In this document: positions 32,611 through 40,817 of the stretch, one piece after another | How positions within the stretch are numbered: position 1 is the stretch's first letter | How the letters are laid out: each line of letters begins with the position of its first letter | DNA from: Sphingopyxis sp. | Lineage (GTDB): Bacteria > Pseudomonadota > Alphaproteobacteria > Sphingomonadales > Sphingomonadaceae | DNA: 64,000 bases | Assembly: GCA_017745175.1 (NCBI GenBank) | Contig: JAGHZY010000014.1 | Location: 1-64,000 of the forward strand | Direction of reading: 5' to 3' | Position numbers and translations under genes: made by a program | Notes under the pieces: generated by a model | What the model saw: only the letters and a program-made list of their open reading frames with translations | Database searches by the model: none | What the model was told of the DNA's origin: nothing

Positions 32611-32814
32611 GTGGCGGACGATCGGCTGGGACCTGCGGCGATCACGCTCGCGGGCGTGATGGCTCGTGTTGCGGGCTGGCGCCCGGACGAATTCTGGGCG
32701 GCGACGCCTGCGGATGTGCGCGCGGCGTTGGCGGGCTGGGCCGAAGCCGGTGGCGATGCGGGGGTCGACGGGGCGGCGTTGGCGGCGATGATGGAGAGAT
32801 TTCCCGATGGGTGA
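32611..32814 (+). CDS. GTA g10.1-type tail assembly chaperone
   Basis: 67 aa from GTG 32611, one base after the g10 stop. GPAAITLAGVMARVAGWRPD, EFWAATPADVRAALAGWAE is the usual pattern of the very small phage tail assembly chaperone encoded before the tape measure, sometimes made as a frameshift extension. It overlaps the tape measure start by eight bases. Confidence 0.85.
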   Translation: MADDRLGPAAITLAGVMARVAGWRPDEFWAATPADVRAALAGWAEAGGDAGVDGAALAAMMERFPDG

Positions 32815-33385
32815 CGAGATCGACGAAATGGTCGTTGCGGTGCGCGCCGATTCGGGTGCGTTCCGGCGCGATATCGCAGCGATGCGTGCCGAACTTGGCG
32901 GACCGCTGGTTGCCGGCGCGGAGGATGCCGGGCGCGCGATCGAGCGGGCGCTGACGCGCGCGATCGTCAGCGGCAAGATGGGGTTCGAGGACCTGAAGCG
33001 GCTCGCGCTGTCGGTAATGGCCGACATCGCGCGCGCAGCGATTTCGAACGGGATCAGCGCGGCGGCCGGCAACGGGGCGGGCGGTGGCGGGGGCAATTTG
33101 CTGTCGCTCGGCACCTCGATCGCGATGGCGCTGTTCGGCGCGCCGGGCCGCGCGACCGGCGGGCCGGTGAGTGCCGGGCGCGCCTATCGTGTCGGCGAGC
33201 GCGGGCCCGAGCTGTTTGTGCCGACCGCGAGCGGGCGGGTCGAGGCGGCCGTCGGGACCGTGCGCAACATCGCGATCACGGTGAATGTGCGCGGTGACGC
33301 GGGGAGCGAACCGCAAAGGCTGGCGCAGACCGGGCGGCAACTGGCGCGCGCGGTGCGGCGTGCCGTCGCGAGCGGAGAGGATTGA
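32807..33385 (+). CDS. GTA tail tape measure protein, g11
   Basis: 192 aa, short as in other GTAs. An N-terminal coiled-coil-prone region (MVVAVRADSGAFRRDIAAMR, ALTRAIVSGKMGFEDLKRLA), a Gly-rich segment, then the conserved tail-tip motif ATGGPVSAGRAYRVGERGPE LFVPTASG split by a space here only for length, and a helical basic end. The length of this protein sets tail length. ATG 32807; its stop shares bases with the g12 ATG. Confidence 0.9.
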   Translation: MGDEIDEMVVAVRADSGAFRRDIAAMRAELGGPLVAGAEDAGRAIERALTRAIVSGKMGFEDLKRLALSVMADIARAAISNGISAAAGNGAGGGGGNLLSLGTSIAMALFGAPGRATGGPVSAGRAYRVGERGPELFVPTASGRVEAAVGTVRNIAITVNVRGDAGSEPQRLAQTGRQLARAVRRAVASGED

Positions 33386-35706
33386 TGGGCTGGGCGCTGG
33401 TAGCCGCGGCCGAGCCGCATCATCGCAAGGGCTGGTTCAAGCGGTTCGACCCGCGGTTCTGGACGGTCGATTTCGCGCGGCCGATGATGGCGGGCGTGAC
33501 GAGCGATACGCCGGGGGCGCTGCGCGTCGAGGCGGTGTTCTACCGGAAGGAGGATCTGGCGGGGCTGATCTGGGAGGCCGAGGACCGGTGGGATCATCCG
33601 CTGCTCGCTTATGAGACCAGTCGCGATTTCCGGCATACGCAGCTCCGTTTCCGCTGGCGGTCGGGCGGGTTGAAGCCGCTCGATGCGCTGCACGGGCCGA
33701 CGCTGACGATCGAGGGGCGCGACGCGGCCGGAAATCCGCGCGCCTGGTATGTCCGTTTGTGGAACTATGCCGAGGGAACGGGCGAGGACGCGGTCGTCCG
33801 CATCGACTTCGATGCGCTCGACGGTGGCTTCCTGTTGCCGGGAGAGGCCGACCGGTTGTGGGCGGGCGACATCGACCGGATGTTCATTTCGCTGGTTCCG
33901 CCGACCTATGACGGCGGCGCGGGCGTGCTTCCGGCGCCCGTCGCCGGGTGGGCCGAGATGAGCGAGATCCTGTGCTCGGGGTCGGGATCGGTGCTGGCAG
34001 TCGGCGATGTCGTGATGCCCGAGCACGGGCTGGGCATGACCAACGGCTATGACGATTGCTATCATCTGACCCCGGCGCGTGTTGTGCGGCAGATCGTGCA
34101 ACTGGGCTATCGCGGCGACGTCGTCCATTATGTCGGGATGAGCCATTATATGCGGCTCGAGGCCCAGGGCGGCGGATTTTACATCAGCCTCGCGGGCGGG
34201 GTGCTGAACGCACCCTGCGCGGCGTGGCATGCGGATCTTGCCGCGGCGTGCCGCGCGGCGGGGCTGGGGCTGATATGGTCGCTCTCCTACGAATTGTTCG
34301 ACGCCTATTGCTGGAACGACTGGAAGCAGCGCGGGCGCGACGGATCGTCGGCGCTGACCGGGTGGACGCCGCCGTCGACGCTGCTGTCGCCGGCGAATGC
34401 TGCCGCGATGGGATATCTGCAGCTCGTCGCGCGCGCGTTCGTCGCGATCGGCGCGGCGGCGGGCCTGGCGCCGAAGTTTCAGGTCGGCGAGCCCTGGTGG
34501 TGGATCGCGGGCGGCGGGCGGATCTGCGCCTATGACGCGGCGACGACGGCGGCACTCGGCGCGGCCAGTGTGCCGATCGCGGACGTCGGCGGCGCGCTGA
34601 CGGCGCCGCAGCTTGCGATGCTCGATGCGCTCGGCGCCTTGCTTTCGGCATCGACCGCCGCGCTCGTCGCGGCGGCGCGCGATGAGGCGGCGGGCGAGCT
34701 GGTCAGCCACCTGCTCGTCTATTTGCCGACGGTGCTCGACCCCGCGGCGCCGGCGGTGCGACGCGCCAATGTGCCGCTCGGCTGGGCGGCGCCGGCCTTC
34801 GATGTGCTGCAGCTCGAGGATTATGACTGGGTGACCGGTGGACGAAGGGGCGAGACGCCAGGCGCGCGCGCAGCGATGGTATTGCGATTGGGCTACGCCG
34901 TTGAAGAGCAGCATTATTTTTCGGGTTTCGTGTTGCGGCCGGATGATCGCGCCGGGTGGGCGGCGATCGCGGACGCCGCCCGCGACGCGCGGCGGACGGG
35001 CGTCGCGCGGACCTTCGTCTGGGCGCTGCCGCAGGTGGCGCGCGACGGCTTCGTGACCTTTGACGGGGAGGATGATGTGCAGGCTTTCGATGCCGTGGAT
35101 TTCCCGCTTGCGATCGGGCGCGAGGCGGTGGCCGTGACCGAATTTTCGACGCAGATCGTGAGCTCGCCGGCCGGGCACGAGCAGCGGGCGAGCGAATGGG
35201 CCGATGCGCGGATGCGTTACGATGCGGGGCCGGGGATCGGTGCCGAGGCCGATGTGCGCACGCTCGCCGAATTTTTCCGGGCGCGAAGGGGCGCGGCGCG
35301 GGCGTTCCGCTTTCGCGATCCGTTCGACAGCAGCTCGGCGGGCGATGGCGGGTTGCCGGCAGCGGACGACCAGCTGCTCGGGCTGGGCGACGGGGCGCGG
35401 CGGCAGTTCGCGCTGGTGAAGGGGTACGGGAGCGGCGACGCCGGGCAGCTGCGCCGGATTCGCCTGCCGGTGGCGGATAGTGTGCGCGTGTCGGTCGACG
35501 GGCTGGAGACGGCAGCCTTTCTGTTGACCGACGACGGCGAGATCCTGCTCGACGCGGCGCCGGCGGCGGGCGTCGCGGTGCGCGCGGGCTATCTGTTCGA
35601 CGTGCCCGTCCGCTTTGCCGAAGACCGGCTGGAGGTGAGCCGCGCCACCTTTCTGGCGGGCGAGATGGCGAGCGTGCCGCTGATCGAGGTGCGGGCGCCA
35701 TGGTGA
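33385..35706 (+). CDS. GTA distal tail protein g12 (DUF2460/TIGR02217) with large N-terminal extension
   Basis: 773 aa, about 3.5 times the Rhodobacter g12. The C-terminal 209 residues (565-773) are the DUF2460 distal tail protein: QAFDAVDFPLAIGREAVAV, GHEQRASEWADARMRYDAG, EFFRARRGAARAFRFRDPF, RRQFALVKGYGSGD and VSRATFLAGEMASVPLIEVR. Residues 1-190 look like a beta-sandwich (TQLRFRWRSGGLKPLDALHG). Residues about 205-555 look like a TIM barrel (GLGMTNGYDDCYHLTPARV, GLGLIWSLSYELFDAYCW, FQVGEPWWWIAGGGRICAYD, VLQLEDYDW), possibly with acidic residues of glycosidase type. I think annotation families named 'non-contractile tail sheath' cover such N-termini, but this is memory. ATG 33385 follows GGAGAGG. 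Confidence 0.85.
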   Translation: MGWALVAAAEPHHRKGWFKRFDPRFWTVDFARPMMAGVTSDTPGALRVEAVFYRKEDLAGLIWEAEDRWDHPLLAYETSRDFRHTQLRFRWRSGGLKPLDALHGPTLTIEGRDAAGNPRAWYVRLWNYAEGTGEDAVVRIDFDALDGGFLLPGEADRLWAGDIDRMFISLVPPTYDGGAGVLPAPVAGWAEMSEILCSGSGSVLAVGDVVMPEHGLGMTNGYDDCYHLTPARVVRQIVQLGYRGDVVHYVGMSHYMRLEAQGGGFYISLAGGVLNAPCAAWHADLAAACRAAGLGLIWSLSYELFDAYCWNDWKQRGRDGSSALTGWTPPSTLLSPANAAAMGYLQLVARAFVAIGAAAGLAPKFQVGEPWWWIAGGGRICAYDAATTAALGAASVPIADVGGALTAPQLAMLDALGALLSASTAALVAAARDEAAGELVSHLLVYLPTVLDPAAPAVRRANVPLGWAAPAFDVLQLEDYDWVTGGRRGETPGARAAMVLRLGYAVEEQHYFSGFVLRPDDRAGWAAIADAARDARRTGVARTFVWALPQVARDGFVTFDGEDDVQAFDAVDFPLAIGREAVAVTEFSTQIVSSPAGHEQRASEWADARMRYDAGPGIGAEADVRTLAEFFRARRGAARAFRFRDPFDSSSAGDGGLPAADDQLLGLGDGARRQFALVKGYGSGDAGQLRRIRLPVADSVRVSVDGLETAAFLLTDDGEILLDAAPAAGVAVRAGYLFDVPVRFAEDRLEVSRATFLAGEMASVPLIEVRAPW
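35065..35079 (+). promoter_or_regulatory. Internal ribosome site and GTG start inside g12
   Basis: GGGGAGG at 35065-35071, five bases, then an in-frame GTG at 35077 exactly where the DUF2460 domain begins (VQAFDAVDFP, against MAFHEVRFP-like starts of stand-alone g12 as I remember them). Initiation here would make a free 209-aa distal tail protein besides the 773-aa fusion. Confidence 0.55.
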
Positions 35707-36521
35707 TGGAGCGGGCGCCCGACTGGATGCGGGAGGAGCTTGTGACGCTCGCCTGGTGCTGGCGGCTGTCGCGCCGCGACGGCGTGGTGATCGGCCTGAC
35801 CTCGCACGACCGCGACCTGACGGTCGGCGGAATTGTGTATCGCGCGGCGCCGGGGATGAAGCCTTCGGCGCTCGAGACGAGCGACAGCCTCGACGCCGCG
35901 ACGATGGATTTGGAAGGCGCGGTGACGAGCGATGCGATCGCGGCGCGCGATCTCGACGCGGGACGCTGGGACGGCGCGGAGCTGGAGCTGTTCGTGACCG
36001 ACTGGCGTGCGCCCGGGCTGGCTCCGGTGATCGTCGCGCAGGGATCGCTGGGCGCGATCGAACGTCGCGGACCGGCCTTTGCCGCCGAACTGCAGGGTGT
36101 AACGCGCTGGCTTGACCGGCCGGTATGCCCGGCAACGTCGCCTTCGTGCCGCGCGGCGCTGGGCGATCGGGCGTGCCGCGTCGATCTGGGGCCGCGGACG
36201 CATATGCGCCATGTGGTTGCGGTCGACGGCCGCGTGGTGACGCTCGACGCCGCGGCGGGCGGCCTGGCCTTCGGCGAGCTGGTGTGGATGGAGGGTGCCA
36301 ATTGCGGATTGGCGAGCCCGGTGATTCTGGTCGAAGGGGCGGTGCTGCATCTCGCGGAGGCGCCGCCTTTCGCGCCGGGCGCCCCCGTTCGTGTGCGCCT
36401 GACCGAAGGCTGCGACAAGCAGCTTGCGACGTGTCGCGACCGCTTTGCCAACGCGGTCAATTTCCGTGGCGAGGCGCATCTGCCCGGGAACGACCTGCTG
36501 ACGCGTTATCCCGGTGGATGA
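35700..36521 (+). CDS. GTA baseplate hub protein g13 (DUF2163)
   Basis: 273 aa. DUF2163: LVTLAWCWRLSRRDGVVIGL, TSHDRDLTVGGIVYRAAPGM, ATMDLEGAVTSDAI, then a cysteine-rich C-terminal part with C143, C150, C159, C238 and C245, ending GEAHLPGNDLL. In Rhodobacter GTA and related phages this hub protein carries an iron-sulfur cluster held by cysteines; the pattern C150-x8-C159 with C238-x6-C245 fits. Overlaps g12 by seven bases and g14 by eight. Confidence 0.92.
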   Translation: MVMERAPDWMREELVTLAWCWRLSRRDGVVIGLTSHDRDLTVGGIVYRAAPGMKPSALETSDSLDAATMDLEGAVTSDAIAARDLDAGRWDGAELELFVTDWRAPGLAPVIVAQGSLGAIERRGPAFAAELQGVTRWLDRPVCPATSPSCRAALGDRACRVDLGPRTHMRHVVAVDGRVVTLDAAAGGLAFGELVWMEGANCGLASPVILVEGAVLHLAEAPPFAPGAPVRVRLTEGCDKQLATCRDRFANAVNFRGEAHLPGNDLLTRYPGG

Positions 36522-36915
36522 GCCCGGCGCGCGCGCCTTCGCGGCGGCGCGGACGATGGTCGGCACGACGTTCCGGCCGCAAGGCAGCGATCCCGCGACG
36601 GGGCTGGACTGCGCAGGGCTGGTTCACGCGGCCTATGCGGCGGCAGGACGATGCCTTGTACGGCCCGCCGGTTATCCGCTGCGGGGCTGGTCGCGGGACC
36701 GGATCGAGGCCGCGCTCGCGCTCGCGGGATTCGTGCCGGTCGCCGATAGAATGCGCGCCGGCGACGTCGCCCTGTTCGCGCAGGCGGCGCGGCAATTTCA
36801 TCTCGGGCTGCTCGGGTACGAGACGCTTGTCCACGCGCATGCCGGGCTTCGCCGGGTGGTCGAAACGCCGCTCGACGCGGCGACGCGGTCGGCGCCCCGG
36901 TGGCGGCTTTCATAA
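36514..36915 (+). CDS. GTA cell-wall peptidase g14 (NlpC/P60)
   Basis: 133 aa from GTG 36514. NlpC/P60 fold: VGTTFRPQGSDPATGLDCAG carries the catalytic C33, and QFHLGLLGYETLVHAHAGLR carries H96 with the following acid/amide position. It should cut the peptidoglycan stem peptide so the particle can inject DNA. Overlaps g13; 10 bp before g15. Confidence 0.93.
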   Translation: MDEPGARAFAAARTMVGTTFRPQGSDPATGLDCAGLVHAAYAAAGRCLVRPAGYPLRGWSRDRIEAALALAGFVPVADRMRAGDVALFAQAARQFHLGLLGYETLVHAHAGLRRVVETPLDAATRSAPRWRLS

Positions 36916-36925
36916 GGGAACAGCG

Positions 36926-39103
36926 ATGGCGACTCTGGTACTGACAGTGGTCGGCGGGATCGTCGGCGGGCCGGTGGGGGCCGCGATCGGCGCCGCAGTG
37001 GGGCAACAGATCGACGCGGAGATTTTCAAGCCCAAGGGGCGCGAGGGACCGCGGCTTGCGGACCTGAAGGTGCAGGCATCGACCTATGGCCAGCAAATTC
37101 CGCAGCTGTTCGGGACGATGCGCGTTGCCGGCAGCGTGATCTGGGCGACCGACCTGATCGAAAGGCGCAACAAGCGCGGTGGCGGCAAGGGACGGCCGTC
37201 GACGACCGAATATAGCTATGCGGCGTCGCTGGCGATCGCGCTGTCGTCGCGTCCGATCCGCGCGATCGGCCGTATCTGGGCCGACGGCAACCTGCTGCGC
37301 GGATCGAGCGGGGCGTTCCAGGAGCGCTGCACCTTTCGCTGGCACGACGGCGGCGAGGATCAGGCCCTCGATCCGTTGATCGCGTCGGCAGTCGGCGTTT
37401 CGTCGGCCAGTGCGTTCCGCGGGCTCGCCTATGCGGTGTTCGAGGAGCTCGAGCTGGGTGCATTCGGTAACCGGATTCCGTCACTGACCTTCGAGGTCGA
37501 GGCCGATGCCGGGAGCGTCGATGCGGGACTGGTCGGCGATGGCCTGCTCGGACAAGAGGGGCGCTGCGCAGGCGACTGGCCCTTTGCGGGGTATGCGGCT
37601 TCGGGCGACCGTGCGCGCGACGCGCTCGCACCGTTGTTCGAAGTAGACGGCGTCCGTCTGGCGAGCGGACCGGACGGCTGGCATCTCGGCTCGATCCTGC
37701 CAGCTGCGGGGCAGCAGGCGCTCGCCGGATTTCGCGAAGCGCGGCGGGCCGATGCTTCAGGCGACCCGGTCGAGCATCGCCGTGCGCCGCTGTCGTCGCT
37801 GCCGGGCACGATCCGGCTGCGGCATTATGAGCCCGAACGCGATTATCAGCTTGGCCAGCAGACGAGCCAGGTCGCGGGCGGCGGCGTGCGCGACGAGCGG
37901 ATCGATTTGCCCGCAGTGCTGCCGGCGACGTCGGCGCGCGCACTGGCCCAGCGGCTCGCCGCCGCCGCAGCCGACGGGCGCGAGACATTGCTTTGGCAAG
38001 GCGACATCGCGGCGTTGGCGCTGACGGTCGGCCAATTGCTGAGCCTCGCCGACGGCAGCCGCTGGCGGCTGGCCGGGAGAACGGTCCGCGGGAACGAAAT
38101 ATGGCTCGAACTCGTGCGCCACCAACCGCTGCCCGCCGTCGAAATCCCGGCCGAGCCCGGGGTTCCTGTCCGCGCGCCCGACTGGCCCGACGCCACGGCT
38201 ATGGTTTGCCTGTTCGATCTTCCCAATATGGGCAGTCCGGCGGCGTCGGCGCCGCGGATCGCGGTCGCCGGAGCCGGGAGCAATAATGGCTGGCGCGGCG
38301 CCGATTGCTGGGTTGTTCCGGCCGTTGGCGCGGAACCCATTCCTGTGGGAACGGTGCGTCCCGCGATGGCGCTGGGCCGGCTTGCCGAGCCGCTGGCTCC
38401 GGGAAGTAACTGCCTGTTCGACCTGTCGGGAGCCGTCGTGGTCGAGCTGGTAAATCCCGCGATGACATTGGAATCGGTCGGCGACGCCGCGCTGCTTGGC
38501 GGCGCAAACCAGGCGATGGTCGGCGGCGAATTGTTGCAATTCGGCGTCGCCGATCCGGTGGGGCCGGCCGTCTGGCGGCTGTCGCGGCTGCTTCGCGGGC
38601 GCGCCGGGACCGAGGCGGGGATGACCCATGCGACGGGCGAACCCTTCGTCCTGCTCGACGATCCGGCGCTGTTGTTGTTGCCCGACGCGATCGCCGGGCT
38701 GGTCGAGGGCGGCGGAGCGGTTCTCCAGTGGGTGGGGCGCGGCGGGACGGATATGACGGAGGCAGGTTTCCCCGCGGTCGGTCGGGCCATGCGGCCACTG
38801 GCTCCGGTGCATGGGCAAATCCTCCCCGACGGCGGGGGAGGCGTGACGATCGGCTGGACAAGGCGCAGTCGTGTCGATGCGGGCTGGCGCGACCATGTCG
38901 ACCAGCCCTTCGGCGAAAGTCGCGAAGCATGGCATATCATGCTGTCGCCGCCGGTGCCGGGCATCGGGCCATGGGAGCGTGCATCGCCTTCGCTGGTCAT
39001 CGACGCCGGCGATCGGACGGCTTTACCGCCCGGCTGCGTGATCGAAATCCGCCAGGCGGGCGATCTTGCGCCGTCACTGCCGCTTGTCTTGCCTTTGGAA
39101 TAA
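36926..39103 (+). CDS. GTA host specificity/tail fibre protein g15, short form
   Basis: 725 aa. The N-terminus is the GTA g15 type: a Gly-rich hydrophobic start (LVLTVVGGIVGGPVGAAIGA), then YGQQIPQLFGTMRVAGSVIW and IRAIGRIWADGNLLRG. A phage-tail_3-like central part (about 180-420) and a beta-rich C-terminal half follow, ending in a fibronectin-like region (about 615-720). Rhodobacter g15 is about 1,300 aa with a TIM-barrel domain; no such domain is visible here. ATG 36926 follows AAGGGA. Probably the tail tip and receptor contact. Confidence 0.88.
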   Translation: MATLVLTVVGGIVGGPVGAAIGAAVGQQIDAEIFKPKGREGPRLADLKVQASTYGQQIPQLFGTMRVAGSVIWATDLIERRNKRGGGKGRPSTTEYSYAASLAIALSSRPIRAIGRIWADGNLLRGSSGAFQERCTFRWHDGGEDQALDPLIASAVGVSSASAFRGLAYAVFEELELGAFGNRIPSLTFEVEADAGSVDAGLVGDGLLGQEGRCAGDWPFAGYAASGDRARDALAPLFEVDGVRLASGPDGWHLGSILPAAGQQALAGFREARRADASGDPVEHRRAPLSSLPGTIRLRHYEPERDYQLGQQTSQVAGGGVRDERIDLPAVLPATSARALAQRLAAAAADGRETLLWQGDIAALALTVGQLLSLADGSRWRLAGRTVRGNEIWLELVRHQPLPAVEIPAEPGVPVRAPDWPDATAMVCLFDLPNMGSPAASAPRIAVAGAGSNNGWRGADCWVVPAVGAEPIPVGTVRPAMALGRLAEPLAPGSNCLFDLSGAVVVELVNPAMTLESVGDAALLGGANQAMVGGELLQFGVADPVGPAVWRLSRLLRGRAGTEAGMTHATGEPFVLLDDPALLLLPDAIAGLVEGGGAVLQWVGRGGTDMTEAGFPAVGRAMRPLAPVHGQILPDGGGGVTIGWTRRSRVDAGWRDHVDQPFGESREAWHIMLSPPVPGIGPWERASPSLVIDAGDRTALPPGCVIEIRQAGDLAPSLPLVLPLE

Positions 39104-39115
39104 AGGATTGAAATC

Positions 39116-39568
39116 ATGACCGACATGCCGACGACACCGCGCTTCGCGTTACCGTTACTCGCCGTTTCACAGGCGCAAAAGGAGGTTACGCATAACGAAG
39201 CGCTCACCTTGCTGGACGCGCTGGTTCATGCGGCGGTCGAAGCGGGACCGATCGCCGTGCCGCCAACGGGTCCCGCTGCGGGGCAAAGCTGGATCGTCGG
39301 TGCGGCACCGACGGGCGCGTGGGCGGGGAAGGATCATGCGATCGCGATCTGCACCTCGGGCGGCTGGCGATTCGCCGCACCGCGAGAGGGCATGGCCGTG
39401 GTACGGCTGACCGACAAGGTACGGCTGCGCTTCGAGGGTGGCGCATGGGTTGCGCCGGCCTTGGTCGCTGCACCCGCCGGCGGGTCCGTGATCGATTCCG
39501 AGGCGCGCAGCGCGATCTCCATGCTGCTTCTTCACCTCGCGGCGCAGGGCCTTCTGATTTCAGGCTGA
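39116..39568 (+). CDS. DUF2793 tail-associated protein
   Basis: 150 aa. DUF2793 pattern: TPRFALPLLAVSQAQKEVTH, NEALTLLDALVHAAVEA, PPTGPAAGQSWIVGAAPTGA and WAGKDHAIAICTSGGWRF. Proteins of this kind sit at the ends of alphaproteobacterial phage and GTA tail operons and probably form fibre or spike parts. ATG 39116 follows AAAGGA, 12 bp after g15, so it belongs to the same unit. The gene ends the cluster; a 130-bp gap with an A/T-rich stretch follows. Confidence 0.85.
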   Translation: MTDMPTTPRFALPLLAVSQAQKEVTHNEALTLLDALVHAAVEAGPIAVPPTGPAAGQSWIVGAAPTGAWAGKDHAIAICTSGGWRFAAPREGMAVVRLTDKVRLRFEGGAWVAPALVAAPAGGSVIDSEARSAISMLLLHLAAQGLLISG

Positions 39569-39698
39569 ATTTCTGTTCTTTGGCGAGCCGAGTGCGACTT
39601 TTTGGCAACATATTGACGATTTGTTAGCTTGCACGGAACCAAAGCGGCGAGTAGGACGTCTGCCGAGACGTATATCTCAACTTGAAAGGGGAATTACT

Positions 39699-40817
39699 AT
39701 GAGGAAGCTTGCCGTCGCTATGGCATTGGCCTCCACCGCCCTGGCGTCGCCTGCTCTGGCGCGCGACAACTCCTGGTATGTGGGTGTTGGTGCCGGTGTA
39801 ATGCTGGTCGAGGATCTGGATCTCGATATCGGCACCGCCAGCAATGCCGGGACGCTCGATCATCGCGCTGGCTATGATGCCGAAGGCACTGTCGGCTATG
39901 ACTTCGGTGGTTTCCGTGCGGAAGTCGAAGTCGGTTTCCGCGAAGCCGACATCAAGTCGGGTCGCTTCACGGCTCCGGGTATCCCGCAGACCGTCAACGG
40001 CGCGGGCCCGCTCGGAACAGGTACGCTTGATCTCGCCGGCGATACGAACGCGCTGAGCTTCATGGTCAACGGCCTGCTCGACTTCGGTGACGACGACGGC
40101 CTCCAGGGCTTTGTCGGCGGCGGTGTCGGTGTCGCTCGCGTTTCGGTCGAGCCGGTCTACGCCGGTAATTTCCTCGACGATTCGGACACGGGCTTTGCCT
40201 GGCAGGCGATCGCGGGTGTCCGCGCTCCGCTCAGCGACAACATCGACGTTGGCCTGAAGTATCGTTTCTTCAACGCCGACAGCATCGATCTGGTCGACCA
40301 GCTCGGTCGCGACGTTTCGACGCGCTTCCGTTCGCACTCGATCCTCGGCACGCTGACGTTCAACTTCGGTGGTGCACCGGCTCCCGTGGAACCGGCTCCG
40401 CCTCCGCCGCCGCCTCCGCCGCCGCCTCCCCCGCCGCCTCCGCCGCCGCCGCCGGTCGTGGAATGCGCGCCGGGACCGTATATCGTGTACTTCGACTGGG
40501 ATAAGTCGGACATCACGCCGGAAGCGGCTTCGACGCTCGACAACGCGATCAGCGCCTACAACCGTGGTTGCACGGGTACGCAGGTCATGCTCGCCGGTCA
40601 CGCTGACCGTTCGGGTTCGGCCAAGTACAACGTCGGCCTGTCGGAACGTCGCAACACCGCGGTTCGTGGTTACCTGACCGCTCGCGGCATCTCGGATGGT
40701 TCGATCAGCGCGCAGGCGTTCGGCGAAACCCGTCCGGCCGTTGCGACCGCCGACGGCGTCCGCAACGACCAGAACCGTCGTGTGGAAATCACTTACGGTC
40801 CGAACTCGGGCATGTAA
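39699..40817 (+). CDS. OmpA-family outer membrane protein with polyproline linker
   Basis: 372 aa. Signal peptide (MRKLAVAMALASTALASPAL, cut after ALA), an eight-strand beta-barrel domain (about 25-228, NSWYVGVGAGVMLVEDLDLD to LTFNFGG), a linker with 19 prolines in a row, and a peptidoglycan-binding OmpA domain (about 260-370, YFDWDKSDITPEAASTL, LAGHADRSGSAKYNVGLSER and NRRVEITYG). It ties the outer membrane to the wall. ATG 39699 follows AAAGGGG. Codon use differs from its neighbours (more GGT, CGT, GCT), as expected of a highly expressed gene. Confidence 0.95.
   Translation: MRKLAVAMALASTALASPALARDNSWYVGVGAGVMLVEDLDLDIGTASNAGTLDHRAGYDAEGTVGYDFGGFRAEVEVGFREADIKSGRFTAPGIPQTVNGAGPLGTGTLDLAGDTNALSFMVNGLLDFGDDDGLQGFVGGGVGVARVSVEPVYAGNFLDDSDTGFAWQAIAGVRAPLSDNIDVGLKYRFFNADSIDLVDQLGRDVSTRFRSHSILGTLTFNFGGAPAPVEPAPPPPPPPPPPPPPPPPPPPVVECAPGPYIVYFDWDKSDITPEAASTLDNAISAYNRGCTGTQVMLAGHADRSGSAKYNVGLSERRNTAVRGYLTARGISDGSISAQAFGETRPAVATADGVRNDQNRRVEITYGPNSGM

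Follow-up and report, generated by a model that had tools for sequence, protein, structure and literature searches.

A conserved internal start in the sheath-fused g12 of sphingomonad gene transfer agents very likely gives a second, free distal tail protein

In the gene transfer agent (GTA) RcGTA, one hexamer of the distal tail protein (Dit) links the six-fold tube to the three-fold baseplate, its odd and even subunits touch the hub and the megatron differently, and the Dit N-terminal Ala2 lies in the joint, as described in PMC7296036. In N4, according to PMC12633501, the sheath forms a six-fold gp64:gp65 assembly around the tail. Genes of the two-polypeptide endolysins LysP7951, LysIME-EF1 and CTP1L contain an in-frame internal start; the C-terminal product made from it and the full-length protein assemble together at 1:3, 2:2 or 1:5 (PMC9430671). 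Here we analysed g12, the Dit gene of an RcGTA-like tail cluster in Sphingopyxis sp. (assembly GCA_017745175.1, contig JAGHZY010000014.1). The window is the full 64,000-nt stretch, positions 1 to 64,000, and all coordinates are on the + strand unless stated. The results make it highly probable that g12 is a gene within a gene, encoding a 773-residue long form and a 209-residue short Dit, whose simplest role would be co-assembly in a mixed Dit ring.

The open reading frame (ORF) of g12 (33385..35706) encodes 773 residues with no stop inside, and the ORF reading, Pfam and TIGR profiles and relatives in the PDB assigned to it a sheath N domain (NCTSP_N), a TIM barrel and a Dit domain (DUF2460). 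The ATG of this long form and its Shine-Dalgarno (SD) sequence, GGAGAGGA (33374..33387, -6.6 kcal), overlap the stop codon of g11. The NCTSP_N domain (PF23844, E 7.5e-95) covers residues 19-207 (33439..34005), and the TIM-barrel_NCTSP domain (PF23845), a homologue of N4 gp64 by Pfam and profile matches, covers residues 212-556 (34018..35052); these two named domains make up what an earlier sequence-only reading had called an upstream gene. The sheath module is complete and in order, with positions 2-191 of 191 of PF23844 and 1-348 of 348 of PF23845 matched. Using a profile of 55 sequences (A1), the TIM barrel matched N4 gp64 at E 3.5e-78, and two stretches of the extension matched N4 gp65 at E 1.5e-27. 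Glu369 (in GEPWWW) and Glu478 (in EDYDW) of the barrel are invariant in the 55 sequences, and N4 gp64 has both motifs. An invariant glutamate pair in a TIM barrel recalls glycoside hydrolases, and a possible role of the arm is to bind or cleave glycans at a surface.

Between the barrel and the Dit domain lies a variable linker, acidic here (35053..35076), which bears an internal ribosome site composed of GGGGAGG (35065..35071; -10.8 kcal to the anti-SD), the spacer ATGAT (35072-35076) and GTG (35077-35079). This SD was the strongest among nine start sites checked in the window. Since (35077-33385)/3 = 564, the GTG is codon 565 and in frame, and the short form starting there (35077..35706) is a free Dit of 209 residues that shares its stop codon with the long form. 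The sequence-only reading had placed the GGGGAGG-N5-GTG site correctly to the base, and the lengths it gave for the two forms agree with the ORF reading, but the extension it put at 560 residues has 564. The Dit domain (35092..35694) matched PF09343 (DUF2460) with 230 bits over residues 570-770, and TIGR02217 with 182 bits (curated cut-off 137) over residues 568-770, the whole domain, which identifies it as a GTA distal tail protein. Its relatives in the PDB are RcGTA Rcc01695 (6tba), whose residue 2 aligns with residue 567, and the phage R4C Dit (8gtc), whose residue 3 aligns with residue 568. From the domain-profile edges and the 6tba alignment, the internal start therefore lies no more than a residue or two from the start of a free-standing Dit, and the site does stand at the domain edge, as had been proposed.

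Conservation of the site between related species, above codon constraint, had been named as a check and was run on 174 species-level junctions, made up of 75 relatives and 99 of 100 further loci spread over the order (the 100th, L227, is of the phage type and has no junction). These junctions carry 48 genus labels, fall into 6 families by our tally and span 41-100% identity. In 174/174 of them, the Dit domain begins with an in-frame ATG, GTG or TTG, by picks that accept two registers and three special cases, and the linker varies in both sequence and length. Among the first 75 junctions, GTG stood at the Dit edge in 56, ATG in 18 and TTG in 1 (75/75), L052 being placed by a hand-written rule at an ATG one residue later. 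For the further 99, the start codon was at the script's fixed place in 96; the pattern was misanchored in L146 and L153, where an ATG is present, and L214 has alanine at the fixed place and, five codons further upstream, GGGGAGGATGGC-GTG with an SD of -10.8, so that start and SD stand together elsewhere. In an alignment made blind to the picks, 172/174 sequences had a start codon in the column (Val 86, Met 84, Leu 2, with Pro 1 in L052 and Ala 1 in L214). An SD of -4 kcal or lower was found at the junction in 173/174, the exception being L229 at -3.3, and the mean internal SD was -8.8 kcal. In two further sets, which overlap the 174 junctions in part, the start was in register in 79/80 named-genome loci and one codon later in the 80th (L313), and it was present in all 79 spanning contigs out of 80 from IMG/VR.

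It had also been suggested that the site is a relic, with an upstream gene recently fused into g12 and the old start not yet decayed. The site does lie where free-standing Dit proteins, in RcGTA as in phages, have their start, but it persists undecayed in 174/174 junctions down to 41% identity, codon changes are limited to start codons in 172/174 sequences of the column, and in L214 the start and the SD lie together, five codons upstream. A match to the 773-residue protein was found in 79/119 relatives, and NCTSP_N in 130/246 genomes drawn from the order and 49/71 genera; PF23845 occurred in only 4/289 genomes drawn from the class. The named-genome set, the best 80 of 584 loci encoding a relative, includes Sphingopyxis, Sphingobium, Sphingomonas, Novosphingobium, Erythrobacter, Blastomonas and Polymorphobacter, and the closest relatives among these best 80 are Sphingopyxis genomes with up to 85% identity. 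Judged from these comparisons, the fusion is old and order-wide in the sphingomonads. Because it is present in 6 families and the site is conserved across the order, the relic was rejected, and we give it almost no chance of being right.

The signal at the junction was then set against the background of the coding sequence. An in-frame start codon with an SD of -4 kcal or lower occurs at 1.9% of the 129,795 codons of the 174 genes, versus 173/174 at the junction. Valine at the column of codon 565 is written GTG in 56/56, and this is the sole one of 57 Val-rich columns without other Val codons (mean 0.58); leucine at the junction column is TTG in 2/2, versus 13% of Leu codons in the background, and both Ile and CTG-Leu are absent from the start column of the blind alignment of 174. 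By SD-anti-SD energy, columns 565-567 took ranks 1-3 of 764, with column 565 itself at rank 2, and when only the 20 most distant sequences were used, they again took ranks 1-3 (of 760). Parsimony on the 174-tip tree gave 30 changes of the picked start codon and 31 of the raw column, which contains 2 non-start codons; among 52 hydrophobic columns, the one that came closest had 39/168 non-start codons. Codon use in the genus set was likewise skewed relative to background, at 94% vs 38% for GGG561, 100% vs 73% for GAG562, 100% vs 56% for GTG565 and 73% vs 6% for GCT567, a rare Ala codon. A chance internal SD in G-rich coding sequence was ruled out by the column tests of the SD and start signal.

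The nucleotide pattern could still be a by-product of the protein, if an acidic linker and a hydrophobic residue were required at the joint, and many linkers are indeed rich in Glu and Asp. However, other linkers read DQGSD, PPTGTSD, NASQGSA or YTKDQENI, the distance from the RDG of the TIM barrel to the start ranges from 11 to 24 residues (172 loci), the column contains neither Ile nor CTG-Leu, and GGG561 and GCT567 are far above the gene's own codon usage. We regard such a protein-level constraint as very improbable.

The mRNA around the start also appeared open. Averaged over the genes, a 45-nt window at the start was 7.6 kcal/mol less structured than its controls from the same gene (up to 80 sampled windows elsewhere per gene), with the opposite in 0/174, and in the median gene 1.25% of control windows were weaker. 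For calibration, the fraction of sequences with start codon and SD was determined over g11 to g15 in the 80 named loci and the window (78-81 sequences per gene). It was 0.97 at codon 565 (n = 79), and 0.90, 0.87 and 0.87 at the annotated starts of g12, g11 and g15, respectively; no other column of these genes exceeded 0.53, the value of the next internal column within g12. The annotated starts of g13 and g14 were not outstanding and are perhaps wrongly placed. The conserved site, the column of start codons and the open RNA supported the earlier proposal that the fusion gives two products, which on this comparative evidence is very likely.

The same module was also found in phage-type loci (PHROG 6040), where it is fused to the hub, the g13 homologue, and not to Dit. 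We examined 13 such loci (L071, L072, L073, L086, L227 and L399-L406), of which L071 and L086 were assigned by PHROG profiles and the other eleven, several of them near-identical, by motifs and the ORF end. In the stretch that runs from the end of the barrel to the hub, a start codon with an SD of -4 kcal or lower was found in 0/13. L071 has its Dit as a gene of its own, upstream of the sheath-hub fusion. Some genomes with a hub-fusion locus (G064, G082, G093 and G584) have the NCTSP-Dit type as well. Three further loci (L413-L415) have sheath-module ORFs of 576-669 codons that end directly after the TIM barrel, so the sheath module seems to exist on its own too.

Several points weigh against the reading of g12 as a gene with two products. 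The picks behind the count of 174/174 inflate it slightly through their two registers and three special cases; the fixed-place and blind-column counts (96/99, 172/174 and 79/80) are free of that help. Sequences of one order are not independent, which the tree count lessens and does not remove. The codon-constraint percentiles were high for codons 567 (99th) and 561 (89th) and only 63rd and 82nd for codons 562 and 565, and a ten-codon sliding window of synonymous constraint did not pick out the junction, its six best windows beginning at codons 298, 193, 250, 244, 299 and 579. The codon-constraint line is therefore weaker than the start-codon and SD tests, and is taken as supporting only. The open-RNA signal owes part of its strength to local base composition. 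The anti-SD was borrowed from relatives, as the 16S 3' end was not found in the window's own assembly and was found in only 4/21 genus genomes. Among the hub fusions, the near-identical L073, L227 and L400 have a GTG and an ATG with an SD of -5.6 inside the last motif of the barrel, about 17 residues before the hub, which fall outside the stretch counted for 0/13. Finally, an SD and a start codon within a gene need not see much use.

The long form is conserved as well. Reading upstream from the internal start, 161/174 relatives have 545 or more open codons (L189 has 538), and the ratio of non-synonymous to synonymous substitution rates (dN/dS), from 1128 pairs for each part, was 0.23 for the extension and 0.19 for Dit, indicating at the level of sequence that the extension is under purifying selection. 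Together with the extension open in 161/174, this selection indicated that the long form is retained. Its own start, picked as the best available, has an SD of -4 kcal or lower in 136/148 loci, with a mean of -7.5 kcal; these 148 loci partly differ from the 174. The two parts might nevertheless act separately, with the short Dit alone serving as the tail part and the upstream 564 residues acting apart, for example after proteolytic release. Twelve loci have a broken extension, and in 10 of them the reading frame of Dit is uninterrupted from the internal start onwards; this count is biased, since the loci were found via their junctions and assembly errors could account for some of the breaks. 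In N4, the sheath part (gp65) and the TIM-barrel part (gp64) are separate proteins. A stop codon between the two parts of g12, though, would be an easy route to two proteins, and there is none in 161/174, so we consider separate action improbable.

Around g12, the gene order is a g11-like gene, g12, g13, NlpC and megatron, which places Dit between tape measure and hub, the g11 assignment coming from weak matches. The g11-like short tape-measure gene (32807..33385) gave weak tape-measure matches and a best PHROG of unknown function. Downstream, profile matches identified g13, the baseplate hub (TIGR02218; 35700..36521), and g14, an NlpC/P60 peptidase (36514..36915). The g14 start was taken at GTG 36514, which has no SD (+0.7 kcal), and the true start may be elsewhere. 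These tail genes are homologous to the RcGTA tail genes and kept among relatives, which marks an RcGTA-like cluster, known here from its tail genes. After the megatron, a DUF2793 protein gene and the gene of an OmpA-type outer-membrane protein follow (39116-40817). A repeat search of the window returned nothing relevant.

The megatron gene g15 (36926..39103) is short, with 725 residues, and by alignment to the RcGTA megatron and profile search it is without GTA_TIM. It aligns with RcGTA megatron residues 21-205 and 843-1246 and not with about 206-842; the peripheral domain, residues 230-744 in PMC7296036, falls mostly inside this unmatched region. GTA_TIM (PF13547) was absent from g15 of the window and found in 0/119 relatives; it occurred in 29/289 class genomes, and the 4 genomes that have the NCTSP TIM barrel were not among these. 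A g15 match was present in 79 named loci; in 75 of them the ORF is complete from stop to stop, with 301-936 codons (707-870 in 66 of the 75), and in the other 4 it runs off the locus, where a 1300-residue ORF would be cut too. Descent of the g12 barrel from the megatron's own TIM barrel was tried and rejected, as hhalign of the NCTSP extension against a 1299-residue megatron profile found no homology (probability 0.5%). With no detectable homology between the two TIM barrels, there could be a functional replacement at most.

In the proposed mechanism, ribosomes would start at ATG 33385 and make the 773-residue protein, with the sheath N domain and TIM barrel fused to the Dit N-terminus, and would start independently at GTG 35077, through GGGGAGG in open mRNA, to make the 209-residue bare Dit with an identical C-terminus. 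Through the shared Dit domain, which forms a hexamer at the tail end in RcGTA, we infer that both forms would co-assemble into a mixed Dit ring. Only some ring subunits would then carry the sheath/TIM-barrel arm beside the tail tip, and the translation ratio would set their number. This mixed ring is proposed for lineages whose megatron is without the RcGTA TIM-barrel region. The internal start may instead merely boost the supply of Dit, as translation insurance in a polar operon, with the ratio of the forms structurally meaningless. The internal SD is stronger on average (-8.8 kcal, 174 junctions) than that of the long form (-7.5 kcal, 148 loci, partly another set), which favours this explanation, but the RcGTA particle needs only six Dit copies (PMC7296036), and 0/13 sheath-hub fusions have such a site at the joint. 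We consider a pure supply effect possible, though rather unlikely.

A 564-residue arm on every subunit might clash with the baseplate, where a ring that combines bare with armed subunits would fit, whereas a fusion to the hub, a trimer in RcGTA, would need no mixture and has no internal start at that joint. On the basis of this clash argument and the contrast with the hub fusions, the Dit ring might be an encoded mosaic, for example of three armed 773-residue and three bare 209-residue subunits in alternation, in which three arms would replace the three peripheral megatron domains missing from sphingomonad megatrons and the internal start would encode the six-to-three symmetry step. This more specific form of the mixed ring is tentative, and in our judgement unlikely to hold as a whole.

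Some further records touch the distribution and annotation of g12. The locus L250 (QDFQ01000001.1), titled Arthrobacter sp. TPD3018, carries a sphingomonad-type g12 with 61% identity, and its organism label is probably wrong. Eighty IMG/VR 'viral' contigs (L317-L396) carry the NCTSP-Dit gene, and many of them are probably sphingomonad GTA clusters and not viruses. In the phage collection, at least 80% of the 773 residues were covered by only 1/361 matching records, MT840053.1 (hits H1, H41 and H66), an unannotated record of 5.4 kb, titled 'Bacteriophage sp.' and originating from human faeces, that bears an NCTSP-Dit fusion and is probably a GTA fragment. On the - strand, an antisense ORF of 983 residues (33184-36135) spans all of g12 and is probably a by-product of GC-rich codons.

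These results suggested that conservation alone points to a hidden second product of a core structural GTA gene, concealed by a single 770-aa reading. Two isoforms of one protein at the tail tip would bear on how six-fold tails are joined to three-fold baseplates, and the extension links GTA tails to the N4-type sheath. Studies that take sphingomonad g12 as one protein, such as those on codon usage, energy cost or classifiers of GTA versus phage, may need to allow for two. No report of an internal translation start for a distal tail protein or a GTA was found in the literature searched, a scope without Viswanathan 2017 (Sphingomonadales 'ancient prophage') and Shakya 2017, and the g12-related passages of PMC9765227, PMC11409702, PMC6821227 and PMC10883770 do not mention an internal start. 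The gene logic is already known from endolysins; its case in a distal tail protein or a GTA is new as far as this partly consulted literature goes.

Compared with known systems, the short form resembles the free-standing Dit of RcGTA (g12 Rcc01695, 6tba/6teh) and of R4C (8gtc) in length, domain and, within a residue or two, start point; unlike those chains of 210 and 214 residues, the gene described here adds a 564-residue N-terminal arm. That extension is homologous to the N4 non-contractile tail sheath (gp64 and gp65; 9lc0, 9yf4), but the N4 sheath proteins are separate from the tail tube, while in g12 the module forms the N-terminal portion of the Dit protein. The phage-type NCTSP-hub fusion (PHROG 6040) has the same kind of sheath module within a GTA-like tail cluster; it joins the module to the hub (g13) with no internal start at the joint, whereas g12 joins it to Dit with one. 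Cas11 is internally translated, and both it and the Rpn genes-within-genes are unrelated to g12 in protein and role. The closest gene logic, one gene with an in-frame internal start, is that of the two-polypeptide endolysins, which are lysis enzymes from phages of Gram-positive hosts; in g12, by contrast, it would serve a structural GTA tail protein, whose two forms may likewise co-assemble.

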